64,000 nucleotides of DNA from Parapedobacter pyrenivorans. GTDB taxonomy: Bacteria; Bacteroidota; Bacteroidia; Sphingobacteriales; Sphingobacteriaceae. Made by a program: the position numbers and the translations under genes. Numbering within the stretch: the first letter of the stretch is position 1; every line of letters begins with the position of its first letter. The DNA lies in contig NZ_BMER01000001.1 of assembly GCF_014636865.1 (NCBI RefSeq), positions 1,476,718 to 1,540,717 of the forward strand, given 5' to 3'. Below the pieces are notes generated by a model. That model was not told the DNA's origin and ran no database searches. It saw only the letters and a list, made by a program, of their open reading frames with translations. Positions 5,231 to 23,448 of this stretch are shown in pieces.

Positions 5231-5268
5231 AAGCACTAAATTTTTATCGCTGTGGCCTCTTCAACGGA

Positions 5269-6024
5269 TTATTTGCAACGCGCTAAAATAGTTCTCGCCA
5301 AAGCCAGAGCAATGGCCTTGTTTTGATCTGGGTCTTCACCTACTTCCACTACCACCTGGAATTTGGCACCATTTGTAAACACATAGAAGGTGTTTTCGAT
5401 GCCGTTCCAAACGGCGGCATCGCCGATGTTTTCCACGGTAACGTACGCATGTGTAACCTTTTTAGCCATGCCTGAAAAATCTTTCATCATTTGCTCTTGC
5501 TGTTCGCGTGATATACCTAAATCGTCCAACTTCTTTTGTGCATTTTTGCTGACTGCTGTTGGGGCTTCGGCTCTGACCGAACGCTCGATTTTTTCGTCCA
5601 ACATCCCGATATCCTCGTCGCTCACAGCTCGATAGGTCATTTTGAAGTTATCCAGCGAAGTGGCTGCAATGCCGGTAAGCTTTACGTAATCCTTTGCTTT
5701 GACTTTCCGATTGATTTGTTTCACAAGTTTTTCACGCCCGTTTTCCCATTCGTACTGTACATAGTCGTATTCGTTGGATGCCAAACCTAACTTTGAAATA
5801 CCCATGATAGCTTGGTCTGCCGGCATATTCATTGCCTCGGCTGCCATTTCTTTCGTGAGGAGTTCGCTATATTTCTCAGCATGGGCCAACAGGCAGGTAT
5901 TCTGGCCTTCGGCTTTGGGGTCTATTTTATCGGATATTCCTGCGGCTGATGGCGGCGTGGCTTGACCACAGCTCATCAACGAACCTGCGGTTACGTAGAC
6001 TAAACCGATAATTGTTGCGTTCAT
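5269..6024 (-). CDS. Predicted lipoprotein of unknown function
   Basis: A 251-residue protein starting MNATIIGLVYVTAGSLMSC, a short signal peptide with lipobox Cys at residue 19. The mature part is helical and charged. It contains a central segment rich in Lys/Glu (NRKVKAKDYVKL) and a C-terminal beta-like part (GIENTFYVFTNGAKFQVVVEVG) ending in an Ala/Leu-rich helix with Cys-Lys. No family was recognised. It is the last gene of a leftward series of envelope genes, 39 bp after the OmpA-type gene, so co-transcription is likely. It converges on the PiT gene with only 38 bp between the stops. Confidence 0.75.
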   Translation of the reverse strand: MNATIIGLVYVTAGSLMSCGQATPPSAAGISDKIDPKAEGQNTCLLAHAEKYSELLTKEMAAEAMNMPADQAIMGISKLGLASNEYDYVQYEWENGREKLVKQINRKVKAKDYVKLTGIAATSLDNFKMTYRAVSDEDIGMLDEKIERSVRAEAPTAVSKNAQKKLDDLGISREQQEQMMKDFSGMAKKVTHAYVTVENIGDAAVWNGIENTFYVFTNGAKFQVVVEVGEDPDQNKAIALALARTILARCK

Positions 6025-6063
6025 TGGTATGTGTTATAAAATTTGTAAAATCGTTGTTGGTTA

Positions 6064-7479
6064 TTACTGAAGAATAAATTCCACACGCCGGTTCTGTGCC
6101 TTTCCAGAGGGCGAGCCGTTATCGGCGACTGGGTCACTTTCTCCCTTACCGGCTGCCAACATGACGTTGCTTACACCAAACTCCCGCTCCAAAGTGGTCC
6201 TCACCGCTTCGGCTCTTTTTTCAGAAAGCTGTTGGTTAAGCGCATCACTGCCGTCGCTGTCGGTATGGCCGATGATGCTCACCGATTTGCCGGGTTCAGA
6301 CTTCAGCGCATCGGCAATTTCCTTTAGTATCCCGTAGGATTCCGACCTGATTTCAGCCGATCCCGTGTTGAATGTGATGGCTGAAGTGGTGAATTTACCT
6401 GACTCCAAGAGCTTGTTGCGGGTATCTGGCTTACCTATGGCATAACGGATGTTGCTCACATAATAGTTATCGGCATCCGTGCTGTTCAACACATAGAAAC
6501 GTGCACTGGTCAGTTTCACATCACGTTCGAATGCATTGGTCATGTCCAAAACTTTGGTTTCATTGGCAAATACCTGTAGTCGCCTTCCCATCCGGGCAAT
6601 GGAGATGTGGATCGGTGTGTTCTTGCTCTCGGCATTGATGAGCTGATCAGCTTTGTACTTTGTCGAAAAGTTGAGGGACGCATCCGCTGATACAACTTTC
6701 CTACCCGTAATAAAAGGCCCGCCATCGTGCCCAACGCCGGAGAATTCGACCCCGGTATAGTGATCAGTCAATTTTTGAAGAGCGAAATATCCGGGTGTAC
6801 CCTCCCAGTCCAGCTTGGCTTCAGGATTGGCAATATCCGAAAACACCAGGTTAAGAAGTCGTGCATTGCTATAGGTGCCAAATGCAAAATCATACATGAG
6901 ATCAAATTCGAGCGTAAAGTTCTCGGGCAAATCCCGCAGGTATTCGGGCACGAAGTTGCCTTTGGTCTTGTTAAACCATACCCAGTTTCCTTCCAGGCCC
7001 TCGAAGTTGACGATTTCAGAGGTGCCAGTACTGACCCACGACGCAGGCAGATCTCCCACGGCATCCTGCGAAAAATCGTCAAAAGCGATGATTTCTTCAC
7101 CCGGCACGAAAGTGAATTTGCTATAACGCTGTAGGCCGGCTGATTGGGTTTCTTGCCCATCGGCCGAGGTGCCTTTGGCATTCATCTCGATGGAATCTCC
7201 GCCATGTGCCTGTCCCGGCTTCCCGGAATTCCTTTTCACTTTGCCTTCTTTTTCCGATTTGGCGATGTCGCCGGGGGTCTCTTCCACTTTGTCCAAGCCT
7301 TTGTCGATCGCTTTGTCTATTTTCCGCTCGATGCGCTGGCTGGCCTTCCGCTCGATTTTCTTTTCAATCTTCTTGCCTGTGTTTTTCCATATCTGGGCGT
7401 TTCCTGTCTGGCAAACCATAAGCAATACGGCGACGGCAAACAGGTGGATCAATTGGTGGTTTCTTTTACTTGTTTTCAT
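6064..7479 (-). CDS. OmpA-family protein with coiled-coil and ConA-like N-terminal region
   Basis: A secreted 471-residue protein with a signal peptide (LIHLFAVAVLLMVCQTGNAQ). Residues 30-70 are a Lys/Glu/Asp-rich heptad-like stretch (KKIEKKIERKASQRIERKID). Residues 125-350 hold a beta-rich, lectin/ConA-like region beginning DDFSQDAVGDLPASW. The last 100 residues are an OmpA peptidoglycan-binding domain: NTGSAEIRSES, GHTDSDGSDALNQQLSEKRAEAV, and the terminal AQNRRVEF motif. It probably tethers an envelope structure to peptidoglycan in the periplasm. A clear paralogue of the same layout lies at 29345-30685. Gaps of 36 and 39 bp to its neighbours suggest an operon with the collagen-like lipoprotein and the lipoprotein downstream. 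Confidence 0.88.
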   Translation of the reverse strand: MKTSKRNHQLIHLFAVAVLLMVCQTGNAQIWKNTGKKIEKKIERKASQRIERKIDKAIDKGLDKVEETPGDIAKSEKEGKVKRNSGKPGQAHGGDSIEMNAKGTSADGQETQSAGLQRYSKFTFVPGEEIIAFDDFSQDAVGDLPASWVSTGTSEIVNFEGLEGNWVWFNKTKGNFVPEYLRDLPENFTLEFDLMYDFAFGTYSNARLLNLVFSDIANPEAKLDWEGTPGYFALQKLTDHYTGVEFSGVGHDGGPFITGRKVVSADASLNFSTKYKADQLINAESKNTPIHISIARMGRRLQVFANETKVLDMTNAFERDVKLTSARFYVLNSTDADNYYVSNIRYAIGKPDTRNKLLESGKFTTSAITFNTGSAEIRSESYGILKEIADALKSEPGKSVSIIGHTDSDGSDALNQQLSEKRAEAVRTTLEREFGVSNVMLAAGKGESDPVADNGSPSGKAQNRRVEFILQ

Positions 7480-7515
7480 GGTGTATTGGTTTTTCTAAAA
7501 GGATAAATCCTGGGA

Positions 7516-8778
7516 TTAATTCATCGGGATATCAAATGCTTGTGAAACGGCATCCAAGTTCGTTAGGTCTACCCCTTGGGATCTCGCGGATGCGGCAAGC
7601 CCCCCGGGGATGATGACATAGCGGTAAGCGTCGTACAAGATGATCTGGCCTAAGTCTGCCGCCGATGACTTCACGTCGATCGTAATGACCGGCAATTGGT
7701 AATGGTAGGAAAACTCATAAGACAAAACCCTGCTGGAATAGCTGAAATTATAAATCGGCAACATGCTAACCTGCGTGTTGTTGACCGTGCGCACATAAAC
7801 CACGACCATGCTATTGGGATAAGTGACTAGCGCATCCACGTATAACAGGCTTTGGGCGTGTTTAGAATTGATAATCTCCCAATCGTTCAAGTTATCAAAA
7901 GCAAACCAATTAGAATATATGACGTTAGCCGTGCCCGGATCCCCTTTATCTCCCTTTGCACCACGCTCACCCTGCGCACCCCGTGGGCCGGTATCTCCTT
8001 TATCGCCCTTATCTCCTTTGGGGCCTTGTACTCCTTTGAGAACGATGCCCGCCCCCCATCCGGTATCGGTTTTGGGCCCAAACAAAGCACCTGTCGTTGT
8101 CTGGAAATAGTAGTCCCCGTCGCGGCCAATGACGGTTGTTGGCGATGCCGAGCCACTGAGTATCTGTGAGCCGGCTTCACCTTGCTCTCCTCTTACTCCT
8201 GTAGCACCCCGCGGGCCGGTATCTCCTTTATCGCCCTTATCTCCTTTGGGGCCTTGCGCCCCTGTAGCACCCCGTGGGCCGGTATCTCCTTTATCACCCT
8301 TATCTCCTTTGGAGCCTTGCGCTCCTGTAGCACCCCGTGGGCCTGATTCTCCTCGGTCACCCTTATCTCCTTTGGGGCCTTGCGCCCCTGTAGCACCCCG
8401 TGGGCCGGTATCTCCTTTATCGCCCTTATCTCCTTTGGGGCCTTGCGCTCCTGTAGCACCCCGTGGGCCCTGGGGTCCCCTCAACCCAATCGATGTACCC
8501 CATCCCTTCTCCGTTTTTGGCCCATAAAGGCTTGCATTGCTGGTGTTCAGGTAGTAGTCGCCTGTTGAACCGATTGATGCTGCCGGAGCTCCGGTACCAC
8601 TGAGGATAACATGGCCATCTTTTCCGGACGCCCCTCGGCTGCCGGCTTCGCCGCGTTCACCCTGCTGCCCTTGTGGTCCTTGTGGACCAACATCGCCCTT
8701 TTTACAGCCTGTCCATGCGCACGTGGTGAGGACAAAAAAAATGCATATTACTAATTGCCTGTTCATGTTCTTAATCAT
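7516..8778 (-). CDS. Collagen-like triple-helix repeat lipoprotein
   Basis: A 420-residue surface lipoprotein: signal peptide MIKNMNRQLVICIFFVLTTC..., lipobox Cys near residue 25, then Gly-X-Y repeats typical of bacterial collagen-like proteins (GPQGPQGQQGERGEAG, later GPKGDKGDKGDTGPRGATG). The collagen stretches are split by two copies of a non-collagen module (GDYYLNT...LYGPKTEKGWG and GDYYFQT...LFGPKTDTGWG). The C-terminal 130 residues are a globular, beta-rich head without recognised family. A start four codons later (Met at 8766) is equally possible. Such proteins usually form trimeric stalks outside the cell. The DNA coding the second collagen block is a 63-bp tandem repeat, so the length may vary between strains. 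Confidence 0.88.
   Translation of the reverse strand: MIKNMNRQLVICIFFVLTTCAWTGCKKGDVGPQGPQGQQGERGEAGSRGASGKDGHVILSGTGAPAASIGSTGDYYLNTSNASLYGPKTEKGWGTSIGLRGPQGPRGATGAQGPKGDKGDKGDTGPRGATGAQGPKGDKGDRGESGPRGATGAQGSKGDKGDKGDTGPRGATGAQGPKGDKGDKGDTGPRGATGVRGEQGEAGSQILSGSASPTTVIGRDGDYYFQTTTGALFGPKTDTGWGAGIVLKGVQGPKGDKGDKGDTGPRGAQGERGAKGDKGDPGTANVIYSNWFAFDNLNDWEIINSKHAQSLLYVDALVTYPNSMVVVYVRTVNNTQVSMLPIYNFSYSSRVLSYEFSYHYQLPVITIDVKSSAADLGQIILYDAYRYVIIPGGLAASARSQGVDLTNLDAVSQAFDIPMN
8199..8480 (+). repeat. 63-bp tandem repeat inside the collagen-like gene
   Basis: The motif CTGTAGCACCCC recurs at 8199, 8262, 8325, 8388 and 8451, exactly 63 bp apart, giving four full units and a partial fifth. Each unit codes 21 residues of Gly-X-Y repeat on the minus strand. 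Units differ by only a few bases, including silent ones. A further diverged unit lies at about 7975-8035. Confidence 0.9.
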
Positions 8779-8832
8779 TTATCGAAAACTCGCAACCAAC
8801 GCTTATCGCTAGCCGGTAGAACCGAAGGGCGC

Positions 8833-8849
8833 AAAAACCCTGATGGGTT
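8833..8849 (-). terminator. Weak intrinsic terminator downstream of the 8904-9665 gene
   Basis: Read leftward, AACCC-ATCA-GGGTT forms a 5-bp stem followed by a T-run. It lies in the 125-bp gap after the lipoprotein gene and before the collagen-like gene. The stem is short, so it may only weaken read-through. Confidence 0.35.
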
Positions 8850-8903
8850 AAAGCACCTTATCCGGTTACCATGAAGACGTGTGCATTTTGTAAAATTAGA
8901 GGG

Positions 8904-9665
8904 TCACCAGCGAAAGGTTTCCGCATTTTCGCCTTCCCCTTTGATCAATTCGCCCTCACCGCTGCTTGTCCACCCAGCTCGCCAATAGTCGCCACCACCA
9001 TTGGGCGGATATGACCAATACGTGAAATCACCCGATTGGTCCGCCTTAAATACATATTGATACCTTGCAGTCAAATAGCTGTTAGGTCTGGGGCTCCATA
9101 CTAATAGTTCCACCCGATAATTGCCTCCCCCGTCGTCTATCCAAGAAAATTCTTTCGTTTGCGTATTGGGCTCGGCACCGATGTAATAGGCTAATTGGCC
9201 AGAATGCTTGCCCGTTTCAGTTTTTCCCTCATCTGCATTCCAGTCTTCCCACCAGTTGCCCGCCGCCCGCATAATATGTCCGCCAGTGGCATTTGTCACC
9301 TCCAACTCAAAGACGCGGTGGGAGTCGACGAAATCTCCGAACATGTAACTGACGATATGACCACCGACCTGGTATTCAAAACGGTCACCTAATCCGCCTG
9401 TAGGTTGTGTATGCACTTCAGGCACCACGAAGTAAGTACTGTATTCCGCAATAATAGCCCCTAAAACGTTAATCGCTCCGTATACCTGCTTGGCGTGAGT
9501 GTCTTGATGGTTTTTCAACGCATCCGGCACTTTGAATACGCCCGGTTGGGATTTCTCAGGCTGCCAGATTTCGGATCCGTCTCCCGGTTCATCTGGATTT
9601 GGATGATCTTTTTTACCACAAGCCAAAAAAGCCAGCGACAATAATATGACGATATGTCTTTTCAT
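8904..9665 (-). CDS. Predicted lipoprotein, heme- or ligand-binding type unclear
   Basis: A 253-residue lipoprotein: MKRHIVILLSLAFLAC with lipobox Cys at 16, followed by a Pro/Asp/Gly-rich linker (GKKDHPNPDEPGDG). The mature part is rich in Trp, Tyr and Gly (NWWEDWNADEG, RYQYVFKADQSGDFTYWSYPP), as in beta-sandwich surface proteins. No family was recognised with confidence. The start of its mature region resembles that of the next gene upstream (9761-10318, GKKDNPIPE), suggesting a related secretion/anchoring leader. It lies in the leftward envelope gene run, 95 bp after its upstream neighbour. Confidence 0.78.
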   Translation of the reverse strand: MKRHIVILLSLAFLACGKKDHPNPDEPGDGSEIWQPEKSQPGVFKVPDALKNHQDTHAKQVYGAINVLGAIIAEYSTYFVVPEVHTQPTGGLGDRFEYQVGGHIVSYMFGDFVDSHRVFELEVTNATGGHIMRAAGNWWEDWNADEGKTETGKHSGQLAYYIGAEPNTQTKEFSWIDDGGGNYRVELLVWSPRPNSYLTARYQYVFKADQSGDFTYWSYPPNGGGDYWRAGWTSSGEGELIKGEGENAETFRW

Positions 9666-9760
9666 ATGTGTATAATTTGTTTTTCAATTGCCATATGTAT
9701 ACTCATGTATGTTTGTGTTTTTCGGAAACATGAGTATTTCATGATGTATTGCATTCTTCG

Positions 9761-10318
9761 TTATTTGATAATAATCTTTCCACTTACTTTAACTTCTACC
9801 TCAATGTTTTCACCTTCAGCCACGGCATCGTAGAATGTTGCATTCTCAAAGCGGAGCTCGAAGGTTGCCAGGCCGCCATTGGGGTTGGATCCTGCAGATT
9901 GGCGTTTCAAGTTACTGATCGATATGTTGCCTCCTACAGACCCAAACACATATTGTGTACCTCCGTCTTTGAGGGAAAGGGCCGCTTGACTTCCTGTTTC
10001 CGCTCCGTCTAGGGCAAATGGAAGTACTCGATCACTTGGGTCCAACGCCAAGGCGCTGGCAAACGTAAAATCACCATGCAGTAGTTGGAGGGAAATGCCT
10101 TTATTGTTTGTCCCTGGCTCCTGCACGAAGAGCGCGATGGCCTGCTCGGGGGAAAGTCCGCCAGCTTTATACTCCCTGCCTGCCAATGGTCCAGTCAGGA
10201 ATTTGAATTCGTAGCTACTGTTGGTCGCTTCTGGAATCGGGTTATCTTTTTTTCCACAAGCCGACAATACCATCACGACGAATAGGGAAAATAATGCAGG
10301 TATTTTCATGGGTTTCAT
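9761..10318 (-). CDS. Predicted lipoprotein of unknown function
   Basis: A 185-residue lipoprotein with signal peptide and lipobox (SLFVVMVLSAC, Cys at about residue 21). The Met three codons downstream is an alternative start. The mature part is predicted beta-rich (YEFKFLTGPLAGREYKAGG, ISISNLKR, EVEVKVSGKIIIK) and ends in a lysine, as small envelope beta-sandwich proteins do. No family recognised. It follows the beta-barrel gene by 23 bp and so is probably in one transcript with it. Confidence 0.78.
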   Translation of the reverse strand: MKPMKIPALFSLFVVMVLSACGKKDNPIPEATNSSYEFKFLTGPLAGREYKAGGLSPEQAIALFVQEPGTNNKGISLQLLHGDFTFASALALDPSDRVLPFALDGAETGSQAALSLKDGGTQYVFGSVGGNISISNLKRQSAGSNPNGGLATFELRFENATFYDAVAEGENIEVEVKVSGKIIIK

Positions 10319-10341
10319 TTTTGTTGAGTTTATAAGTTTTT

Positions 10342-10854
10342 TTAACGGATACTGTATTTGACGCCAAGGAAAATGCCCAGCTGTTCTGTGCCGGCAATGG
10401 TGTATTTCAATTCGGCGAAGGGTAGGATTTTCGAACCGAAATCAAAGTTGGTACCTGCGCCGATGTTGAGTCCCACTTTGCTGGCACTCCCTCCAAGTCC
10501 ACCGAAGTCCATCCCGATATCCCCGAGATCAAAGTTTACGGAAGAGCGGGCCACATTCAATCCGGCCAATCCATACACACTGAAAGGCCCTTCATTGACG
10601 AAGTAATAGTGGGCATTGGCATTGAACTCCCAAAATGTCATTTTAGCGAATTCGCTATTTTCCATAAAATAGTAAGCAAAGGATGGTGCAATGGCCAGTT
10701 TTGGGATGATGCCAATCTCACCAATGACACCGATAGCCGGCTTTTCGATTTTGGTGCCGTAGGCACCAAATAGACCGACACGGATGGGCTGCTGAGCTTG
10801 TAGGAATGCGAAACCCACCATAAGAAACAAACCTGATAATACTAATTTTTTCAT
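10342..10854 (-). CDS. Outer-membrane beta-barrel protein, porin-like
   Basis: A 170-residue protein with a signal peptide ending QAQ (MKKLVLSGLFLMVGFAFLQAQ) and alternating polar/hydrophobic strands (NANAHYYFVNEGPFSVYGLAG, LNIGAGTNFDF, ILPFAELKYTIAG). The end GIFLGVKYSIR is a final strand closing on a terminal aromatic motif, typical of small eight-stranded outer-membrane barrels of the OmpW/OMP_b-brl kind. It is first in the leftward series of envelope genes. Its substrate or partner is unknown. Confidence 0.8.
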   Translation of the reverse strand: MKKLVLSGLFLMVGFAFLQAQQPIRVGLFGAYGTKIEKPAIGVIGEIGIIPKLAIAPSFAYYFMENSEFAKMTFWEFNANAHYYFVNEGPFSVYGLAGLNVARSSVNFDLGDIGMDFGGLGGSASKVGLNIGAGTNFDFGSKILPFAELKYTIAGTEQLGIFLGVKYSIR

Positions 10855-10974
10855 AAGATTACTTTTGTTTTATTTTTATGGTTAGTGACGTACCCCATGT
10901 GTCAGGTAAACAGAAAAATCAAAATGTGCGGGGAATACCTAATTTGGTGTAGTGCCGACATTGATATATTCGCT

Positions 10975-10982
10975 TATATTTG
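10975..10982 (+). promoter_or_regulatory. Bacteroidota -7 promoter box (TATATTTG) for the CHAT gene
   Basis: TATATTTG matches TAnnTTTG. It predicts transcription starting near 10988 and a 5' leader of about 40 bases before the ATG at 11027. A GGAAA sequence lies a few bases before the start codon. Confidence 0.5.
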
Positions 10983-11026
10983 TGCTGTCATCGCAAATCA
11001 CAAATAAGATTACTTAAGGAAACCGC

Positions 11027-14000
11027 ATGCTACCTGTCTATAGATTCTTATCGCTACTTTTTACCTGCTTTGCGCTAATGTTGGCCTTCACGACTGAATC
11101 GCAAGAATCAAACTGGAAAGCGTTGTCGATTATCGCGGATTCGCTGCAGAGCAATAGACAGTTTGATCAAGCTGTGCCTTTTTGGGAGCAGGCTGTCTCG
11201 AGTGCCAAAAATGCTCCAGATACGATAAAGCGAATGTTGCGCTTCCGCCTACTTTATGGCAAAGGGCTGACTTACGACTATGAAAAGGAAGGCATTCCCT
11301 TTTTTGAAGAAGCCTATCCATTATTGTCTGTTTCCCAATTGGATACCTCGCGGCAATCTACTTTCCTCAATACCTACTACCACTACCTAGGATATAATGG
11401 ACGTTGGACAGAAGCCCTGCCTATTGCCGAGCTTTGTATGCGGCTACGCGAAAACTTGGATGAAAAACCTCCTTTAGCATACATTTCCACCGTGCATGAC
11501 GTTGCCTATATCAATAACATGATTGGCCATTACCCGCAAGCCATTGAAGGCTACAAACGCTCCATTGACTTATATATTCGTCATAAAGGCCGGTTCGACA
11601 ACGATGTAGCATTGGGATACAACAACCTCGCGTTCAATTACGGTTTGATGGGGATGGCAAACAAGCAATATGAGTCCTATAGTGAAGCTGCTGCTATCTG
11701 GGAAAGCATTGCACTGGAAGACAAAAGCTACCTGAGTACCGTATATGGCAATTTGCTTCAATGGCTAATAGATTATGGCCAGGTAGATGAGGCGGAAAGC
11801 TTGCTGGCCAAGATGCGCCAACTGCATCTGCATAAGGACGCACAGTGGGGCAGCAACAATAGGTTGATCGTGAATAAAAACGAGCTTGAAAACGTAAATA
11901 TTCGACTAAGTTTGTGGAATAAGAGCATTAAATTATATGCTAAAACGGGTGACACCGCCCGCACCCACCAATACCTTGATTCGATTGCCCGAGTGCTGCA
12001 TGCTATCGGCCCGCAGCGTACCGACAAACAACTCGAATACCTCGAAAGTGGATATGCAGACATCGGCAGTGCTTATGCCGCGCAAGGAAAAGACAGTTTT
12101 GCAGTCAGTTACTTCCAAAAGGCGCTAGACCTCAAAAGAACGCATCAGTATGGTCGATCGCAATCGCAAACCTTAGCTAAGATGGCCAAATCACTTATGG
12201 CGATACGGGATTTCGAAACAGCAAAACTATATATAGACAGTACGTTAGCGATAACAAAGCATTCGGCTAACCTTCCCGTTTTCCATACGATTGCAGCACA
12301 AATCGCCGCAAAACAACAAGACACTGATCGCGCAAGATACCATATCGCGCAAACCCTCGAAGGTTTAGCAGGATCCGCTACGCTTGGAAAATCTCCCCAA
12401 AAAATCAAATCAGGTGATTTCGACGGCAAAGTTGACCGCAATTATATCGCTGCGCTGAGCTCAGCCGGCCATCACTATCTTGGTTTTTACAGGAATACGG
12501 GGCAGGTATCCGATTTGGATGCGGCGCAGCATTTGTTTACGCTGGCATCTGATATGCTGGGGACCTACTACCTTGGTGGCCTTTACACCGAAACATTGGC
12601 CGAACTCTTGTCGGCTATCCAACAAGGGTTACTCGAATGCCAGCTCCTGAATCCGAATGAAGCCATTAAAGAACAAACCTTGGCTCGCCTCATCAGTTTG
12701 GTGGAAAATAGCCAAAGCCGTCACAGTTGGAAAAAGTTCCTTAAAAATATGCCAACGGGGTCGCTGGTCATTCCTGATTCACTGCTTGATCAGGAAGAAG
12801 CGCACCGGCGACTAATCGTTCACTACAAAAGCCAATTGTACGGCATGGCGAACGATAGCGCTATCCATGGAGACACTGACCTCATCACTGCGCTGCTCCA
12901 TCAGGAGGAGGCCGCGCTCCAAAAAGCCGAAACAGCTATTTTGAATTTACATCCTATCTATAATCATTTTAGCGAAAGTCAAATCACCACATCAGACATC
13001 CAACAGAAACTTCGAAACCAGTCAATTCTAAGGTACGTGATCACCGATTCAGCTTCCTACCTTATCCACATCAAACGCCGCAGTCTGGCGCTCTATCCTT
13101 TAGGAAATTCATCCACTTTGATAGGGCTGGCCGAGCGCACCATTGGCCTGCTGAAGAAAAGGGACGACGCCTATTATCCCGCTGCAAAGGAATTGCATGA
13201 TCTTCTGCTACCCGAAACACTGAAGCCCCATTTGGCAAACCAATTAATCATCGTGCCTGATGGTGTTTTGCATTACCTTCCGTTTGAGGCGTTGACGGCA
13301 AACGGAGAGCCTAGCGGCTTTTTGGTGCATAATCATACGCCCAGTTATGCCACTTCATTACCGCTCTTGCTTGTGCAAGATCAAACATCATATAGTAATG
13401 AAAGAGCGTTTGCTGCCTTTGCCCCGCATTATCCGGTAACTACCACAGCTGCAGATCAACGCGGACAGGAGTTACTCGACTTGCCAGGAGCGGCAAATGA
13501 AGTGGACGTGCTGTCTACCTTGTTTGGGGGGGATATTCACCGAGGCGATTCGGTCATCAAATCAGTATTTTGGGATCAAGCTCCGAAGTATGGATTACTA
13601 CACCTTGCCATGCACGCCCAAGTCGATGACCATAATGGCGAGCAATCCCATTTCATATTTGCGGACAACAGCAGGTTACATAGCTATGAGTTGTATGGTA
13701 TGAAACTGCAAGCGGGATTGGCGGTACTTAGTGCATGTAATACGGGGTATGGCCCTATCCAAAAAGGTGAAGGCGTACAAAGCTTGGCAAGGGCTTTTAC
13801 TTATGCCGGTGTGCCCAGCTTGGTCATGGGTCTCTGGCAACTACCAGACAATAGCACGAGTGAAATCATGGTTGATTTCTACCATAGCCTAAAAGAAAAT
13901 AAACATAAACATGTTGCGCTGGCGACCGCTAAAAAGGGGTATCTTGAAAAATTCGAGTTAGAATCCGAGTTGCTGCATCCGTATTACTGGGCCGGGCTGG

Positions 14001-14137
14001 TCATATCAGGCAACACCAGCTCCATCAGGCCCGGTATAAATTGGCTATATTGGGCGCTGCTGGGAATCATTGGATTTGGCGGCTGTTTATATGCAGGCAG
14101 AAAATGGAAGCGGGCCCGTCGTCCACGGGCTTTGTAG
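11027..14137 (+). CDS. TPR-CHAT domain protein (caspase-like peptidase fold) with C-terminal membrane anchor
   Basis: A 1036-residue protein with a signal-like hydrophobic N terminus (FLSLLFTCFALMLAFTT). Tetratricopeptide repeats fill residues 25-550 (for example ALGYNNLAFNYGLMGMANKQYESY and GSAYAAQGKDSFAVSYFQKALDLK). A CHAT domain covers about 660-1000. The caspase-type dyad is visible: His863 in HLAMHA and Cys904 in LSACNTGYG, followed by GEGVQSLARAFTYAG and VMGLWQLPD. One membrane segment near the end (INWLYWALLGIIGFGGCLYAG) precedes a basic tail. CHAT proteases act in peptide-bond cleavage switches such as separase and the type III CRISPR-linked Craspase. The stop abuts the convergent stop of the TPR/ECF sigma pair (14137/14138), a gene set seen together in Bacteroidota. 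The substrate is not known. Confidence 0.9.
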   Translation: MLPVYRFLSLLFTCFALMLAFTTESQESNWKALSIIADSLQSNRQFDQAVPFWEQAVSSAKNAPDTIKRMLRFRLLYGKGLTYDYEKEGIPFFEEAYPLLSVSQLDTSRQSTFLNTYYHYLGYNGRWTEALPIAELCMRLRENLDEKPPLAYISTVHDVAYINNMIGHYPQAIEGYKRSIDLYIRHKGRFDNDVALGYNNLAFNYGLMGMANKQYESYSEAAAIWESIALEDKSYLSTVYGNLLQWLIDYGQVDEAESLLAKMRQLHLHKDAQWGSNNRLIVNKNELENVNIRLSLWNKSIKLYAKTGDTARTHQYLDSIARVLHAIGPQRTDKQLEYLESGYADIGSAYAAQGKDSFAVSYFQKALDLKRTHQYGRSQSQTLAKMAKSLMAIRDFETAKLYIDSTLAITKHSANLPVFHTIAAQIAAKQQDTDRARYHIAQTLEGLAGSATLGKSPQKIKSGDFDGKVDRNYIAALSSAGHHYLGFYRNTGQVSDLDAAQHLFTLASDMLGTYYLGGLYTETLAELLSAIQQGLLECQLLNPNEAIKEQTLARLISLVENSQSRHSWKKFLKNMPTGSLVIPDSLLDQEEAHRRLIVHYKSQLYGMANDSAIHGDTDLITALLHQEEAALQKAETAILNLHPIYNHFSESQITTSDIQQKLRNQSILRYVITDSASYLIHIKRRSLALYPLGNSSTLIGLAERTIGLLKKRDDAYYPAAKELHDLLLPETLKPHLANQLIIVPDGVLHYLPFEALTANGEPSGFLVHNHTPSYATSLPLLLVQDQTSYSNERAFAAFAPHYPVTTTAADQRGQELLDLPGAANEVDVLSTLFGGDIHRGDSVIKSVFWDQAPKYGLLHLAMHAQVDDHNGEQSHFIFADNSRLHSYELYGMKLQAGLAVLSACNTGYGPIQKGEGVQSLARAFTYAGVPSLVMGLWQLPDNSTSEIMVDFYHSLKENKHKHVALATAKKGYLEKFELESELLHPYYWAGLVISGNTSSIRPGINWLYWALLGIIGFGGCLYAGRKWKRARRPRAL

Positions 14138-14890
14138 TCATGGATTTAATTCTTTTATCAACACTTTAGCCTCTGTTTGCTTATAGCCGTTTGATACGGC
14201 CAATTGTTCAAGTAGGTTAATCGCTGATTCGGTTTCCCCCATTTTGATGTATGCCAATGACAAGTACCATTGCGCCTGGCGCATGAGCTTCGTGCCCGGT
14301 GAGTCCAAATAGGTAGACAAGAGCGTAGTGGCTTCCTTGTAACGATTTAACTGCATGGCGGACAACGCTTGGTAAAACACGGTTTCAGCGTCTGCATTGC
14401 CATCACCGATCAATTGCGCAAACAGTATATAGGCCCTTTCGTAATTTCCTTTTTCATAGTTTGCGTATGCCCTCGTGAGCACATCTGTATCTGTTGCTTC
14501 CCGTACGATGGGCATTACAATATTTGGATAAGGGGTAAAATGGATACTATACAATTCCGAGGACGTTCTTACAGGCTGATTAGACCAATAAAATAGTCCT
14601 ATTGTACCGATTAGTAAGATGGATGCAGCTGCATACCACCACGTTAACCGACTTTCTTGTCCGGAAATGGTTGTTTCAGGCGACTGCTCTTCATCGGTCA
14701 AACTTTGCAAGCGAGATTTTAGCCGCTCATGTTCATTTCGCGCAAAAGCCTTGGCTGCCTGTTGCCTGAATTGAAGTTCCTCCCTGAATACAGGGTCCTC
14801 TGCTCTTAGCTTTTCTACTTTATGGAGTTCATCCCCCTCCAGTTTGCCTGTTAAGTAGGCATCGATCAGTACATCATATTTTTCCGGCAT
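14138..14890 (-). CDS. Anti-sigma-factor-like single-pass membrane protein with C-terminal TPRs
   Basis: A 250-residue protein. Residues 1-65 form a helical, charged cytoplasmic domain (YDVLIDAYLTGKLEGDELHKVEKL) like the N-terminal part of Bacteroidota anti-sigma factors, without the zinc-binding HxxxCxxC motif. Residues 84-102 are one membrane helix (WWYAAASILLIGTIGLFYW). Residues 135-245 are tetratricopeptide-like repeats (AYANYEKGNYERAYILFAQL; YQALSAMQLNRYKEATTLL; YLSLAYIKMGETESAINLL), predicted periplasmic. Its start overlaps the end of the ECF sigma gene by 17 bp, so translation is coupled. It probably holds the sigma factor and listens to a periplasmic signal. That role is inferred from layout, not from a known family match. 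Confidence 0.8.
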   Translation of the reverse strand: MPEKYDVLIDAYLTGKLEGDELHKVEKLRAEDPVFREELQFRQQAAKAFARNEHERLKSRLQSLTDEEQSPETTISGQESRLTWWYAAASILLIGTIGLFYWSNQPVRTSSELYSIHFTPYPNIVMPIVREATDTDVLTRAYANYEKGNYERAYILFAQLIGDGNADAETVFYQALSAMQLNRYKEATTLLSTYLDSPGTKLMRQAQWYLSLAYIKMGETESAINLLEQLAVSNGYKQTEAKVLIKELNP

Positions 14891-15446
14891 TCCGATATAT
14901 TTTTTTCACGATGAGCTTCAAACTCTGCATACACCTGTATTTTTGGCTTTTTACTACATCTGTGTTAGCGTATCCCAACAGCTTCATAATCGCTGTGGGT
15001 TCCTTGTCGTCGTAGTAAAACATTCGTAAAATCGTGCTACACGGCTCTCCCAGCTTTTTGATGGCATTTTGCAATAGGCTAACCGTTTCGTCCTCATCTG
15101 TTACATTTTCAATATAGTTGGAAATTACCCAATCTATTTCCTGCAAGTCACCCGTTTCCAGGCTTGTAGTAGGCCTACTGTTCCTAAGGTAACGATAAAG
15201 CATAAATTTGCCTATACTGATTATATATGTAGAAATGGCGCTTTTCAATTCCGTCACTTTGCCCGTCCTTACGTTTTCGTAAAACGCAATGATTGCATCC
15301 TGATAGATATCCTCCAGCACCATGTTGTCGTCAAGGATGTGCTTACCATACCTCAAAAATCTCGCTTTATTGGTTACATATAACTCGTCCAATGCTCGCT
15401 CATTTCCCTTTCTAATTTCGGTAAGTAATTGCTGTTCGTCTTTCAT
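14874..15446 (-). CDS. ECF-type sigma-70 family RNA polymerase sigma factor
   Basis: A 190-residue sigma factor starting MKDEQQLLTEIRKG. The open frame runs 63 codons further upstream but that part does not resemble a sigma factor. Region 2 is seen at about 20-95 (ALDELYVTNKARFLRYGKHI, LEDIYQDAIIAFYENV, and FMLYRYLRN). Region 4 at 130-185 (LGEPCSTILRMFYYDDKEPTAIMKLLGYANTDVVKSQKYRCMQSLK) contains the helix-turn-helix. This is the Bacteroidota ECF type with an extended region 4 pattern KSQKYRCMQ. It is followed by, and overlaps with, the TPR membrane protein, its likely regulator. The CHAT gene converges on the pair and may be one of its targets or partners. Confidence 0.88.
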   Translation of the reverse strand: MKDEQQLLTEIRKGNERALDELYVTNKARFLRYGKHILDDNMVLEDIYQDAIIAFYENVRTGKVTELKSAISTYIISIGKFMLYRYLRNSRPTTSLETGDLQEIDWVISNYIENVTDEDETVSLLQNAIKKLGEPCSTILRMFYYDDKEPTAIMKLLGYANTDVVKSQKYRCMQSLKLIVKKIYRNAGKI

Positions 15447-15830
15447 TAGTATCGGCACATCGAAAAAAGTAAACTGGATTCGGCTAAAATAGCCATTCTT
15501 GCCCATTGGGCGGAACGTTGTTTGATTTTTTTGGGTAACCATCGTATCTAACGTTACAACAGGATAGGCTTGACCGGGCTTAGCGGTCATATTGACCGAA
15601 GTATTGGCTCTAATAGCCAATAGCACGAATATCAATAGCAGCGGTTTTCAGATACAGGAACGGTTCAATGTGCTGTTCAACAATATCCAGATTTGCTAAT
15701 GATTAAGAAATAGCGATATCGTTAACAATTTAGAATTACTTCAAATTACATTTTCTATCATTCTCTTCCCCTAAACCCGGGCTGCGCGTAGCGTTAATGC
15801 GTAACTTTGGTGAGATAATACATACGTGCT
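15447..15830. other. Intergenic region between the ECF sigma gene and cydA
   Basis: 384 bp between divergent genes. It should hold the promoters of both. The cydA side has an exact -7 box at 15802-15809. The sigma side has no exact TAnnTTTG box. An open reading frame continuing from the sigma gene covers 15447-15635, but its sequence has no family resemblance, so I treat it as non-coding. The stretch 15700-15780 is AT-rich. Confidence 0.5.
15802..15809 (+). promoter_or_regulatory. Bacteroidota -7 promoter box (TAACTTTG) for cydAB
   Basis: TAACTTTG matches TAnnTTTG exactly, 21 bp before the cydA start codon. The predicted transcription start is near 15815, leaving a leader of about 15 bases. 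Confidence 0.6.
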
Positions 15831-17165
15831 ATGGATGATTTTCTCGCCGCTCGGTCACAGATGGCCATGTCCTTGGGATTCCACATCATTTTTGCCTGTA
15901 TCGGCATGGTCATGCCCTTTTTCATGTCGATTTCCCATTTCATTTACCTAAAGACCGGCAACTTACTATACAAGGGACTAACGAAAGCTTGGAGCCGCGG
16001 AGTAGCGATACTTTTTGCTACTGGTGCGGTATCCGGTACCATGCTTTCTTTCGAGCTAGGGTTGTTGTGGCCCACGTTTATGGAGCACGCTGGTCCTATC
16101 TTTGGGATGCCATTTTCCTTGGAGGGGACCGCTTTTTTTATCGAGGCCATAGCGCTCGGTTTCTTTCTCTATGGTTGGGATCGTTTTCACCCGTGGTTCC
16201 ATTGGGCTGCAGGATTGGTGGTGGGCATCAGCGGCGTGGCCTCTGGTATTTTGGTGGTGGCTGCCAATGCATGGATGAACAGCCCCGCGGGCTTTGACTA
16301 CGTGAATGGCCAGTATTTGAACATCGATCCCATTGCGGCCATGTTCAACGATGCTTGGTTCTCACAGGCACTGCACATGACATTGGCCGCGTTTGTAGCT
16401 ACCGGCTTCGCCGTTGCAGGCGTGCATGCGCTGATGATCCTCAAAAATAAAAATGTCGCCTTTCACAATGCGGCCTTCCGTATCAGTGCGCTGACCGCCT
16501 GTGTAGCAGCACTCCTGCAGCCGATCAGTGGGGATATCTCGGCTAAAGATGTCGCTGAGCGGCAGCCGGCCAAGCTAGCAGCCATGGAGGCGCATTTCAA
16601 TACCGAGTCAAGGGCACCCTTTTTGATTGGCGGCATACCGGATGAAGAAAATGACACGGTACACTATGGATTAAAGATACCGGGGCTATTAAGCTTTTTG
16701 GCCCATGGCGATATCGATGCGCCGGTGACGGGCCTGAAGGACATTCCCCGTGAAGACCGCCCGCCGGTGGCAATTACCCATTATGCCTTCCAGCTCATGA
16801 TCGGGTTGGGAATGTTACTTGCGGCATTGTCCGTTATATACCTCTACGGGCTTATCCACAAAAAACATTGGCTATCCAGCAGGTGGCTATTGCGACTGTT
16901 CGTGATTGCGATCCCGATGGGTTATATCGCGCTGGAAGCTGGTTGGACAGTTACCGAAGTGGGTCGCCAACCTTGGATCATCCATGGCGTGATGCGTACG
17001 GCAGACGCCGTGACTCCCATGCCGGGCATTGTCTACTCATTCTACCTATTCACGGCAGTGTTTGTGTCGCTGTCGATCATCGTGAGTTACCTGCTATACA
17101 GGCAAATTAAGATGGTCGGCAAGTTGTATGATCCGACGGATCCCGAGTATAAAGCAAAAGATTAA
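15831..17165 (+). CDS. cydA: Cytochrome bd ubiquinol oxidase subunit I
   Basis: A 444-residue heme-bearing subunit of the bd-type quinol oxidase in the cytoplasmic membrane. It oxidises quinol and reduces O2 to water with high affinity. Seen: the N-terminal SLGFHIIFACIGM with the heme-ligand His, SLEGTAFFIEAIALG with two conserved acidic residues, ALHMTLAAFVATGFA with the b558 His, the quinol-loop segment GDISAKDVAERQPAKLAAMEAHF, and GRQPWIIHGVMRTADAV. The quinol loop is short, so this is the short-loop type rather than the long-loop E. coli type. It is 5 bp upstream of cydB and is transcribed from the -7 box at 15802. Confidence 0.96.
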   Translation: MDDFLAARSQMAMSLGFHIIFACIGMVMPFFMSISHFIYLKTGNLLYKGLTKAWSRGVAILFATGAVSGTMLSFELGLLWPTFMEHAGPIFGMPFSLEGTAFFIEAIALGFFLYGWDRFHPWFHWAAGLVVGISGVASGILVVAANAWMNSPAGFDYVNGQYLNIDPIAAMFNDAWFSQALHMTLAAFVATGFAVAGVHALMILKNKNVAFHNAAFRISALTACVAALLQPISGDISAKDVAERQPAKLAAMEAHFNTESRAPFLIGGIPDEENDTVHYGLKIPGLLSFLAHGDIDAPVTGLKDIPREDRPPVAITHYAFQLMIGLGMLLAALSVIYLYGLIHKKHWLSSRWLLRLFVIAIPMGYIALEAGWTVTEVGRQPWIIHGVMRTADAVTPMPGIVYSFYLFTAVFVSLSIIVSYLLYRQIKMVGKLYDPTDPEYKAKD

Positions 17166-17170
17166 ACGCT

Positions 17171-18175
17171 ATGTTGTACGTCGTTATCGCATACCTTTGG
17201 GCTTCCATTTGCCTTTACATCCTGTTGGGCGGGGCCGATTTCGGTGCCGGCATCGTGGAGTTGGTCAGTAAGCCCAAGCACCGCAAGGCCGTGCGCGCCA
17301 TCATGTACCGGGCTATCGGACCTGTTTGGGAGGCCAATCACATGTGGCTGATCATTGCCATCGTCATCCTGTTCGTAGGCTTCCCCGAAATCTATGCGGC
17401 CATGTCGGTATACATGCATATACCACTCGTGCTTATGCTGCTGGGGATTATGGCACGGGGTACCGCATTCGCCTTTCGTCACTACGATGCCGTTACTGAC
17501 GATCTGCAGCGGGTCTATTCTCGTGTTTTTACATCATCAAGTCTCGTTACCCCTTTCTTTCTGGGGATCATCGCCGCCGCTACGGTATCGCGCACGATAG
17601 ACACCGAAGCAGCCGACTTCCTTTCGGCCTACGTGTTTAGCTGGTTCAATGGCTTCGGGATCAGTGTGGGTTTCTTCACCATTGCAATCTGTGGTTATCT
17701 AGCAGCCGTGTTTGCCGTGGGGGAAACGCCAGAAGAAGGCGAAAGACGCATGCTTATTCGGCTGGCTCGGTCTTTTATTTTGATTGTGGTGGTATGCGGT
17801 GCAGTGGTGTTTCTAATGGCACATCGTTCGGAAATCCCACTGTTGCATTGGATTTTCGGGGATATCTGGGGGCAACTGGCCATTACGGCCGCTTCGGTGT
17901 CACTAATTGGATTGTTCATTGCATTTAAACGCCGTAATGCCCTTTGGATGCGGCTGCTTGCCGGCTTCCAGGTGGTGATGATCCTATTTGCGGCTACCTA
18001 CCAGCATTATCCCGATCTGGTTTTGCTCAACAACGGCAGCGCATTGTCCCTAGCGGATCACCACGGGGGGTTGGCCAGCATTGAGGCGCTGGGGTGGGCG
18101 CTCCTTTGTGGCAGTGTGCTGATACTCCCGGCACTGTTTTACCTGATGTATGCGTTCCGCGGAAAGACGAAATAA
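17171..18175 (+). CDS. cydB: Cytochrome bd ubiquinol oxidase subunit II
   Basis: A 334-residue membrane subunit pairing with CydA. The N terminus LYVVIAYLWASICLYILLGGADFGAGIVELVS is the family signature, including the GGADFG motif. VWEANHMWLIIAIVILFVGFPEIYA follows at about residue 55. Roughly eight membrane segments span the rest. The gene starts 5 bp after cydA, so the two are one operon. No cydX-like small ORF was noticed after it; a PhnA-family gene with its own -7 box follows instead. Confidence 0.95.
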   Translation: MLYVVIAYLWASICLYILLGGADFGAGIVELVSKPKHRKAVRAIMYRAIGPVWEANHMWLIIAIVILFVGFPEIYAAMSVYMHIPLVLMLLGIMARGTAFAFRHYDAVTDDLQRVYSRVFTSSSLVTPFFLGIIAAATVSRTIDTEAADFLSAYVFSWFNGFGISVGFFTIAICGYLAAVFAVGETPEEGERRMLIRLARSFILIVVVCGAVVFLMAHRSEIPLLHWIFGDIWGQLAITAASVSLIGLFIAFKRRNALWMRLLAGFQVVMILFAATYQHYPDLVLLNNGSALSLADHHGGLASIEALGWALLCGSVLILPALFYLMYAFRGKTK

Positions 18176-18179
18176 ATCT

Positions 18180-18187
18180 TATCTTTG
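18180..18187 (+). promoter_or_regulatory. Bacteroidota -7 promoter box (TATCTTTG) for the PhnA/YjdM gene
   Basis: TATCTTTG is an exact TAnnTTTG match. It begins 5 bp after the cydB stop and lies 24 bp before the next start codon, giving that gene its own promoter next to read-through from cydAB. Confidence 0.6.
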
Positions 18188-18210
18188 CGACCACTAGATC
18201 AATCCCGGAT

Positions 18211-18780
18211 ATGAACGACAAATTAATGGCAAGAAGCGGTGGTAAATGCGAATTGTGCCAAAAAGAAGCGGACGTAGTGGTCCATCACATATTGCCTGAT
18301 ACGTATGCCGATAATGAGGTGGTCGTGTGCAAGTCCCTGGTCGGCCAGGTTGAAGGTACTGAGCCTCTCAATCCTGAAGCGTGGCGTTTCCTTCCCGATG
18401 CGATGTGGAGCGAAGTGCCCGCCGTACAAGTGCTGGCATGGCGTATGCTGAACCGCCTGAAAGACGAAGCTTGGGCTTCCGACGCATTGGATATCCTTTA
18501 CCTCGACGACGATATGCTGGAATGGGCAAAGGCCCTCGGTGAACAGGGAGAAGCCCGTGAAGCCGTCGTGCACAAAGACGCCAATGGCAACATTCTCCAA
18601 AACGGCGATTCTGTGGTGATTACCAAAACTCTCGATGTGAAGGGTAGCAGCTTAAGCGCCAAACTGGGCACAGTGGTTAAAAACATTCGCTTGGTGGAAG
18701 ATAATCCAGAGCAGATAGAAGGCAGGGTAGACGGGCAGCTGATTGTTATTTTAACGAAGTACTTGCGGAAGCAAAACTAG
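18211..18780 (+). CDS. PhnA/YjdM domain protein with N-terminal Cys motif
   Basis: A 189-residue cytoplasmic protein. The start at 18211 (MNDKLMARSGGKCELC) is chosen because the frame further upstream overlaps cydB and the -7 box. Residues 13-40 hold CELC and a third Cys after VVHHILPDTYADNEVVVC, a zinc-ribbon or HNH-like knuckle. The C-terminal 70 residues are the YjdM/PhnA domain (VVHKDANGNILQNGDSVVITKTLDVKGSS...GTVVKNIRL). Despite the name, PhnA-family proteins are not needed for phosphonate breakdown in E. coli and their role is uncertain. A strong hairpin follows. Confidence 0.88.
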   Translation: MNDKLMARSGGKCELCQKEADVVVHHILPDTYADNEVVVCKSLVGQVEGTEPLNPEAWRFLPDAMWSEVPAVQVLAWRMLNRLKDEAWASDALDILYLDDDMLEWAKALGEQGEAREAVVHKDANGNILQNGDSVVITKTLDVKGSSLSAKLGTVVKNIRLVEDNPEQIEGRVDGQLIVILTKYLRKQN

Positions 18781-18812
18781 TCGTCTCGTAATGCTTTCGA
18801 TAAAGGAATATA

Positions 18813-18838
18813 GGCGTGCCTTATGCACGCCCATTTTC
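18813..18838 (+). terminator. Intrinsic terminator after the PhnA/YjdM gene
   Basis: GGCGTGC-CTTAT-GCACGCC forms a perfect 7-bp GC-rich stem (18813-18831) followed by CATTTT. It lies between two convergent genes and could serve the rightward transcript. Confidence 0.65.
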
Positions 18839-18886
18839 GATTAAATGACAGCTACCGCAAGGCATTCAACAGAAAACCTTGATGAG

Positions 18887-19648
18887 TTATTTATAAAGGT
18901 AGGTGGTTCGGGATTCTTTGCCATCTTCATCTTTCTCCACCGCTGAGGAAGGGTAGCCCGTGGCCGCATATTGATAAGCATACGTACTGATGAACGACCC
19001 GAGGCCGGTAATGTCCAACTTGCTTTCAATGATCTCGTTTTCACTGGAGAAGACACCGAACAAATCGGGAATAACAAGGTAGTCGAAACGAGCCGCACTG
19101 AATGGTGATTTCTTGTTGCCGTATTTCCATGTCAGTTGCAGTTCGCTGTTATCACTGGTTAATGCTACCCGCGTTAAGTTCTTGCCGGTATAGCTAAGCG
19201 TATAGATAGATTCTTCGCCCGACTCGTTGGAGAAGCGCATTGTACTGACCTTACCGTTCGCTGTTTCGTAGGCAACGGCTGTTTCGAACTCCAATTCGGG
19301 ATTTGCCGGATAGGTCAAAACGGAAGTTGCGCTTAAAGGAATACCGGTGTTGCTATAGGTGATTTCGAATACCTGTTTAGCGCCCTCCGACTCGAGTTCA
19401 AACTTTATGGGATTGTCATTGCCATCATAAGTCACCTTACTGTGATAATTATCCTCTTCGCTATTGTACGCAACGAGGCGGTTTTTGTCGTCGTAAAGCA
19501 ATGTGTAGGTACTGGATACACCATCTGTCGTGGTCATATAACGTTGGAGGTATTTTGTTGTGTTTGATAGCGATTCACGCTCGCGGTCTTTTTTGCAACC
19601 TGAGGCCACGACAAGGCAGATCAAACTGAATAGGAACGTTTGTTTCAT
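18887..19648 (-). CDS. Lipoprotein with RHS/YD-like repeats
   Basis: A 253-residue lipoprotein: MKQTFLFSLICLVVASGC with lipobox Cys at 18. The mature part consists of short beta-hairpin repeats of the RHS/YD kind (YTLLYDDKNRLVAYN, SKVTYDGNDNPIKFE, FEITYSNTGIPLSA, YTLSYTGKNLTRVAL) and ends YAYQYAATGYPSSAVEKDEDGKESRTTYLYK. Such DUF4595-like proteins are common surface lipoproteins in Bacteroidota with unknown ligands. It has an exact -7 box 26 bp upstream (19674-19681) and is a single-gene unit. Confidence 0.82.
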   Translation of the reverse strand: MKQTFLFSLICLVVASGCKKDRERESLSNTTKYLQRYMTTTDGVSSTYTLLYDDKNRLVAYNSEEDNYHSKVTYDGNDNPIKFELESEGAKQVFEITYSNTGIPLSATSVLTYPANPELEFETAVAYETANGKVSTMRFSNESGEESIYTLSYTGKNLTRVALTSDNSELQLTWKYGNKKSPFSAARFDYLVIPDLFGVFSSENEIIESKLDITGLGSFISTYAYQYAATGYPSSAVEKDEDGKESRTTYLYK

Positions 19649-19673
19649 TTGTTTGTACTTTGTTTTACATTGA

Positions 19674-19681
19674 CAAAATTA
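19674..19681 (-). promoter_or_regulatory. Bacteroidota -7 promoter box (TAATTTTG) for the RHS-like lipoprotein gene
   Basis: Read on the minus strand, TAATTTTG matches TAnnTTTG, about 26 bp before the start codon at 19648. Confidence 0.55.
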
Positions 19682-19767
19682 GTGCTTGTGAGCTGACAGT
19701 TTTTCGGGGTTGCTACGGGAACTTTCGCTTGCGCAGTATTACGTATTTCCGGCTGAATTGCTGTCAA

Positions 19768-23372: not shown

Positions 23373-23448
23373 AACAGGTATTCTCCAAAGCTTGTGCAAA
23401 ATAACTAAAAATCGACCACCCGCCATCCGTGGTACTACGGAAAGTTGA

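Follow-up and report, generated by a model that had tools for sequence, protein, structure and literature searches.

A TPR-CHAT protease encoded with an ECF sigma factor and its putative membrane anti-sigma in Bacteroidota, and its predicted cleavage site

Introduction

What might a CHAT-family protease cut when its gene abuts those of a sigma factor and a membrane protein? We investigated this question for a locus of Parapedobacter pyrenivorans in a 64,000-nt stretch of contig NZ_BMER01000001.1 (assembly GCF_014636865.1, positions 1,476,718 to 1,540,717, forward strand), the whole of which is called the window here. The locus comprises (i) a tetratricopeptide repeat (TPR)-CHAT protein, (ii) a single-pass TPR membrane protein that is a putative anti-sigma factor, and (iii) an extracytoplasmic function (ECF) sigma factor. 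A first-pass annotation of the window had proposed that the protease cleaves the anti-sigma and frees the sigma factor. We find this mechanism likely in outline, as a variant of an already known principle, and can now attach a specific predicted cleavage site to it. Partial support comes from gene co-occurrence, predicted topology, and covariation between an anti-sigma arginine (Arg130) and a CHAT glutamate (Glu825), while the cut itself and the release of the sigma factor remain predictions from sequence.

Architecture of the three-gene locus

The CHAT gene (11027..14137, plus strand; 1036 amino acids), defined from the open reading frame (ORF) list, Pfam, an alignment, and a structure model, ends in a TAG (14135-14137) that lies back to back with the minus-strand TGA (14138-14140) of the anti-sigma gene (14138..14890, minus strand; 250 amino acids; ORF list, Pfam and profile matches, and model). 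The latter overlaps by 17 nt the ECF sigma gene (14874..15446, minus strand; 190 amino acids; ORF list, Pfam, and TIGR02937), for which the start at 15446 was used, the listed ORF beginning further upstream at a TTG. The stop-to-stop, overlapping layout was thus as first annotated. The sigma factor matches TIGR02937 (sigma70-ECF; 51.4 bits, cut-off 42.9, E 9e-14) and, above the Pfam cut-off, sigma-70 region 2, with region 4 unreported for that protein. The 250-residue protein matches the anti-sigma model NF052375 weakly (7e-6), below its cut-off, and both it and the CHAT protein have Pfam TPR matches; a Foldseek search with it returned TPR folds and no anti-sigma among the 50 best matches listed. 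Its architecture and the gene overlap fit a membrane anti-sigma, so named here as putative, with sigma binding predicted.

The 1036-residue protein is a CHAT-family member (PF12770, 180.8 bits against a cut-off of 24; E 5e-53; residues 719-996) with an intact catalytic dyad and is a predicted protease. The dyad numbering given earlier, His863/Cys904, is correct; both residues are kept in 22/22 aligned CHATs from nearby loci and in 136 of the 137 CHATs paired with an anti-sigma below, the remaining one having a gap. Described at first as secreted or membrane anchored, the protein has a predicted signal peptide (2-21) as well as a predicted C-terminal transmembrane (TM) helix (1006-1030) with a basic tail, and between them TPRs (~29-575) and the CHAT domain (~655-995). 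Its structure model (mean predicted local distance difference test score [pLDDT], 88.7) has a helix at 2-21, TPR helices, the CHAT fold, and a helix at 1006-1030. By eye, the 22 nearby-locus CHATs end in a hydrophobic segment and a short, mostly basic tail, and nearly all have a signal-peptide-like N-terminus (in this set, a contig end truncates L038, and the ORF starts of L044 and L143 are extended; L-numbers denote retrieved genome regions and G-numbers sampled genomes). CHATs overall take two forms, either with a C-terminal tail of ~30-50 residues that nearly always includes a TM-like segment (TM form) or with a tail of 0-5 residues (tail-less). Among the matches listed, the named records most similar to the window CHAT, at 48% identity, come from Sphingobacterium alkalisoli and from S. 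phlebotomi.

The anti-sigma comprises cytoplasmic helices (3-68), a TM helix (83-103), a periplasmic linker (104-136), and a TPR region (137-248), elements that its model (mean pLDDT, 90) also contains. From the arrangement of this TM helix and of the signal helix and helix 1006-1030 in the CHAT protein, we infer that the CHAT domain and the TPR regions of both proteins face the periplasm. The first-pass annotation had allowed that the CHAT domain might lie across the membrane from any cleavage site; by prediction, it and the anti-sigma ectodomain are on the same, periplasmic, side.

Covariation of the anti-sigma linker with CHAT residue 825

The linker carries a motif, LY..YF.PYPN...P.VR, that ends in Arg130 (codon 14501..14503, minus strand, a coordinate obtained by arithmetic from the ORF start at 14890), which conservation marks as the predicted P1 residue for cleavage by CHAT. 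Among 46 anti-sigmas (47 from the window and the named CHAT loci, one of >80% identity being removed), 45 have an Arg and one has a Lys at this position between the TM helix and the TPRs, which ranks third in conservation across the whole anti-sigma; the following residue is Gly, Asp, Ser, Asn, or Glu.

Pairing each CHAT with the nearest anti-sigma within 5.5 kb gave 137 pairs, namely 116 with a TM-form CHAT and 21 classed as tail-less (of which L323 and L330 are cut by the region end); some rows represent the same DNA twice (e.g., L038/L254 and L039/L255). An Arg or Lys aligns at the linker position in 97 of the 116 TM pairs, and nine more have a misaligned Arg that was identified by eye. Every CHAT paired with such a linker has Glu825 (106/106). 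The remaining 10 linkers have a Met (seven in one clade, and L143), a Leu (L135), or a Thr (L066), and their CHATs, which represent three lineages, have Ala, Leu, Val, or Gln at position 825 (Glu825 in 0/10). Column 825 is the sole CHAT column that, besides being conserved at ≥80% in the 106, differs in each of the three non-Arg lineages. Asp941, invariant in the 106, is replaced by a still acidic Glu in the Met clade and by Ala in G037 but is retained in L066, and Ser902 is altered in 9 of the 10 non-Arg pairs. A quick tree built from the 116 CHATs shows three changes for each of the two traits (linker and 825), with the contrasts in the same direction.

Genome G037 also encodes the two partners apart. 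Four of its CHATs (L040, L041, L042, and L048) have Gln825, Ala902, and Gly941 and no anti-sigma in the retrieved regions; three of its anti-sigmas (L136, L137, and L139) have Met-Gly linkers and no CHAT in the retrieved regions; and two others (L138 and L140) have an Arg linker. The separate CHATs and Met-Gly anti-sigmas would be compatible with matching in trans.

Structural placement of Glu825

Clan CD proteases read P1 with a residue placed after strand β1, where helix α1 starts or close by (Asp163 in gingipain R, Asp365 in MALT1), and a further specificity site lies on loop L5 (PMC4626109 and PMC4357240, accessible portions). In the window CHAT model, Glu825 lies within helix 820-833, which comes after strand 793-800; Asp941 stands at the start of the helix that follows strand 931-935. 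Both are predicted S1 acids, Glu825 being placed in the model like the S1 acid of clan CD Arg-proteases. Because Arg130 and Glu825 covary, and because Glu825 occupies this position, the most likely role of CHAT is that of site-1 protease, with a predicted cut after Arg130.

Since a search of solved structures with the whole CHAT protein yielded TPR proteins only (among the matches listed), a CHAT-only profile was used. Among solved folds, Csx29 (8eey_B; Z 31.7, root-mean-square deviation [rmsd] 7.4, 589 residues aligned) comes closest to the CHAT model; separase (5fc2_B; Z 27.1, rmsd 3.0, 301 residues), DdvA (8rot; Z 22.1, rmsd 8.2, 611 residues), and gingipain R (1cvr; Z 19.0, rmsd 3.6, 280 residues) also match. 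In the S. brodae Craspase, no Csx29 residue aligns with Glu825, the chains having a gap there. This Craspase cuts at L|D, and the Craspase sites given in the accessible literature text (L|D, M|K, and A|S) are cut after Leu, Met, or Ala.

Recurrence of the module in Bacteroidota

Co-occurrence counts of the kind that the first-pass annotation had proposed show that the sigma/anti-sigma/CHAT trio is a real, widespread, and recurrent module in Bacteroidota. In the window's own genome, all four CHAT genes above the Pfam cut-off (window, L035, L036, and L037) have a sigma gene and a TM/TPR anti-sigma gene within 3 kb, and CHAT proteins at E ≤ 1e-20 occur in at least 138 of 296 sampled genomes of the phylum. 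Gene orders vary among convergent, operon, and divergent. In addition, 20 strong anti-sigma matches were picked for having no listed CHAT nearby, and a CHAT was present in the retrieved 15 kb of 11 of them.

Rates were taken from a phylum sample of 75 regions, approximately every second listed CHAT match; five additional, hand-picked regions (L232-L236, included in the pairs above) do not enter the rates, nor do CHATs <2.5 kb from a region end, and one CHAT was unclassed. Of the TM-anchored CHATs, 12/24 have a profile-matched anti-sigma at a distance of ≤500 bp, compared with only 1/47 of the tail-less ones (p 2.2e-6), and the figures at 5 kb are 16/24 versus 17/47 (p 0.023), the profile having been built from nearby modules, whose kind it favors, and the 500-bp threshold having been picked after the data were seen. 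Under a looser sigma/anti-sigma pair rule, the 500-bp figures are 8/24 versus 3/47 (p 0.005). This recount weakened the 500-bp contrast from p 2e-6 to 0.005, the tail-less CHATs with a close pair being L170, L201, and L207, plus L178 near an edge, which the profile had partly missed. The initial, crude detectors for TM segments and for pairs under-counted and were hence replaced; with them, no significant link between anchoring and pairing was found at 5 kb (p 0.23-1.0), nor with the replacement detectors (p 0.13-1.0). For regions near the window, the counts at 500 bp are 11/32 TM forms versus 0/8 tail-less forms (p 0.08), and at the named loci, for which the table has no tail-less forms, 31/64 TM forms.

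The f43 loci were dropped as modules, since opposite-strand genes part CHAT from sigma in them (three regions inspected); a single f43-family locus accounts for 14 of the 19 unanchored-CHAT pairs of the phylum sample.

Several further neighbors of these CHAT genes were observed. Operon-type modules are followed downstream by a Met-zincin (DUF4953/DUF5117) protease in L035 (7805-10504) and L049 (3381-6080). Related ~660-residue proteins lie beside CHAT in L037, L060, L061, L062, L063, and L065, with PKD/DUF7619/DUF7849 in the two that were scanned (L037 and L062). Proteins with a C-terminal sorting domain of the type IX secretion system (T9SS) are encoded next to the CHAT genes of L040, L048, L135, and L143 (G037), which hints at a surface-protein partner.

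A promoter-like motif and candidate output genes

The first-pass annotation had proposed a search for ECF promoter motifs upstream of the CHAT gene. The motif that we found, CTGTTTACCT-N14-GTCACTAA (10882..10913, minus strand; one exact match in the window), instead lies ahead of a leftward gene run, and the idea of a promoter ahead of CHAT itself was dropped because this conserved motif faces the divergent genes. At N14 spacing, it is the sole site in the whole genome with <3 mismatches, with 15 other sites at three mismatches versus 22 matches of the reversed pattern; an own-genome search that assumed a 15-base gap did not detect the site, which the 14-base search recovered. With a gap of 12-16 bases, exact matches occur twice each in L237 and L238 and once in L140, that in L005 being the window's own site, and the motif recurs at the equivalent place in two Sphingobacterium species. 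A general sigma-70 promoter scan found fewer sites than in shuffled sequence.

The run comprises six genes on one strand (5269..10854, minus), which encode a beta-barrel outer membrane protein (OMP), lipoproteins, a collagen-like lipoprotein, and an OmpA-family protein (Pfam and homologues). Homologues of 6/6 are found at the CHAT locus of S. alkalisoli (L237) and of 3/6 at that of S. phlebotomi (L238). Because the promoter-like motif precedes them, we infer that these surface-protein genes are the output, with the sigma factor as putative reader of the motif. The collagen-like lipoprotein (7516-8778, minus strand) has four collagen-repeat stretches, and similar proteins lie near modules in L063, L065, L237, and L238.

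Elsewhere in the window, a histidine kinase with TPRs (23449-25392, minus strand) overlaps another ORF at 22743-23612, and ten tandem paralogous ORFs of ~800 residues each, with mutual identities of 25-39%, occupy 35361-60750 (minus strand); the four that were scanned are MacB_PCD/FtsX permeases, as is the ORF at 61836-63956. PADLOC gave a single weak TPR match in the window, and Rfam found nothing in 5000-20000.

Discussion

Taken together, these data point to the following circuit. The anti-sigma would keep the ECF sigma factor at the inner membrane, where the periplasmic TPR-CHAT protein would be anchored alongside by its C-terminal TM helix. An envelope cue, acting through the CHAT TPRs, the anti-sigma TPRs, or both, would activate CHAT, which is predicted from the covariation to cut after Arg130, ~27 residues outside the TM helix. 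RseP carries out the site-2 step in regulated intramembrane proteolysis of ECF anti-sigmas; an M50 protease gene is present in the genome, and the anti-sigma stub would pass to this RseP-type enzyme. The freed sigma factor would then transcribe its targets, most likely, judging from the motif, the adjacent OMP, lipoprotein, and OmpA genes. Modules of the Met type, with a non-acidic residue 825, could insulate circuits from one another within one cell. We consider it probable that the locus encodes such a dedicated envelope circuit. With somewhat less assurance, though still on the favorable side, we propose a widespread Bacteroidota class in which membrane-anchored, separase-like CHATs serve as dedicated site-1 proteases of TPR anti-sigmas, with co-evolving S1 and P1 residues, such that several insulated copies, of Arg and Met type, could run in one cell.

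A number of observations weigh against this circuit. The link between anchoring and pairing is non-significant at 5 kb under the looser rule (13/24 versus 18/47, p 0.22); half to two thirds of the TM-anchored CHATs have no profile-matched anti-sigma within 500 bp; and the retrieved regions hold no CHAT for 9 of the 20 selected anti-sigmas or in seven G037 regions. Six anti-sigmas from genomes with no CHAT at E ≤ 1e-20 include three that keep the Arg by eye (L317, L318, and L321), the other three having lost it (L319, L320, and L322). Among the tail-less pairs, Glu825 is present in 21/21 and the Arg, by eye, in 19/21, being absent from L233 and from the doubtful L182 anti-sigma. The L143 linker has an Arg three residues past its Met. 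The nine calls made by eye came from a listing that also displayed the CHAT residue. A first regular expression, which also captured a K-E of a TPR helix and was later tightened, left 6/116 TM pairs (five non-Glu and one Glu) and 1/21 tail-less pairs discordant; a second, tuned after the data were seen, left 4/116 and 7/21. Lastly, the quick tree included column 825, and it holds three co-changes only, one of them on well-supported branches, such that a sign test could not reach significance.

An alternative that we consider unlikely makes CHAT an output of the sigma factor rather than its activator, so that the sigma/anti-sigma pair is switched otherwise and CHAT processes nearby-encoded surface or T9SS-exported proteins. 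Consistent with this, in L035, L049, L054, and L058 the CHAT gene follows the same-strand sigma and anti-sigma genes; T9SS sorting-domain proteins adjoin several G037 CHATs (10 neighbors scanned, with 4 passing the Pfam cut-off and 1 falling short of it); and six divergent-type loci have a PKD/DUF7619/DUF7849-type protein next to CHAT. However, this leaves unexplained why the linker Arg and Glu825 are lost jointly among TM-anchored pairs, and the promoter-like motif points away from CHAT. Less probable again is that CHAT acts by binding, the two ectodomains forming a sensory complex in which Arg130 is docked by Glu825 and stays uncut. The linker motif is fairly ordered in the model (block-mean pLDDT, 82-96), a further point against cleavage; Arg126 of the gingipain RgpB prodomain fills S1 in a position unfavorable for cutting (PMC4357240, accessible portion); and covariation cannot separate binding from cleavage. 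Yet pure binding would not need the dyad, which is all but invariant among the paired CHATs. Marginally below this we place a lineage-linked coincidence, in which the genes co-travel for other reasons and the Arg/Glu pattern reflects shared ancestry: independent changes are few, and the Met clade also differs completely at columns 861, 922, 941, 944, and 948, which counts against the proposed circuit too, but column 825 alone changes in all three non-Arg lineages and sits where clan CD specificity is set.

If CHAT does cleave the anti-sigma, then (i) a large set of Bacteroidota CHAT proteins, so far uncharacterised, would gain a function, (ii) a caspase/separase-type enzyme would enter envelope anti-sigma proteolysis, and (iii) Craspase-type sigma control would be tied to a membrane arrangement. 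The reading makes a sharp prediction, namely a cut after Arg130 that is read by Glu825, with the Met-type circuit L035 in the same genome.

The first-pass annotation knew of no characterised example of such a circuit. This was mistaken, as Craspase, with DdvA and ECF54 as further prior art, precedes it, although the open-access literature that we searched had no title on a Bacteroidota CHAT/sigma/anti-sigma module among the matches listed. In Craspase, a TPR-CHAT protease relieves an inhibitor of an ECF-type sigma factor, as set out in the accessible part of PMC10028731. This type III-E CRISPR system (Csx29/TPR-CHAT, Csx30, and CASP-sigma/RpoE) resembles the window in having a TPR-CHAT protein with a nearby-encoded sigma inhibitor and, by prediction, in the cleavage of that inhibitor. 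It differs in being a cytosolic, RNA-guided complex with Cas7-11, and Csx30 is not described as a membrane protein in that part of PMC10028731. Further, the Craspase cut sites are neither conserved nor basic, whereas the window module has a conserved Arg, a signal peptide, and membrane anchors. Pfam showed no Cas families among nine neighboring proteins, and no genome-wide search for gRAMP or Csx30 was made.

The same portion of PMC10028731 names RseA/DegS and RsiW as cases of anti-sigma proteolysis. They are alike in the single-pass anti-sigma, in the periplasmic linker as candidate site 1, and in the M50 protease of the genome, but here the candidate site-1 enzyme is a CHAT cysteine protease of clan CD whose gene accompanies that of the anti-sigma. 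DdvA, of the DdvA/DdvS pair of Myxococcus xanthus (function in PMC4374960, accessible portion), is a transmembrane anti-sigma whose solved chain, 8rot, is named a CHAT domain-containing protein; it combines in a single polypeptide what the window encodes as two separate convergent genes. In ECF54, genes for a CHAT protein, a subtilase, and a carboxypeptidase are conserved near the sigma gene, and proteolytic control has been proposed (PMC8999054, accessible portion); ECF54 differs in being proposed to work without an anti-sigma. Finally, separase and gingipain R, whose biological roles are unrelated, share their fold with the window CHAT model; their Arg at P1 and their S1 acid, placed where helix α1 begins or close to it, correspond to what is predicted here.

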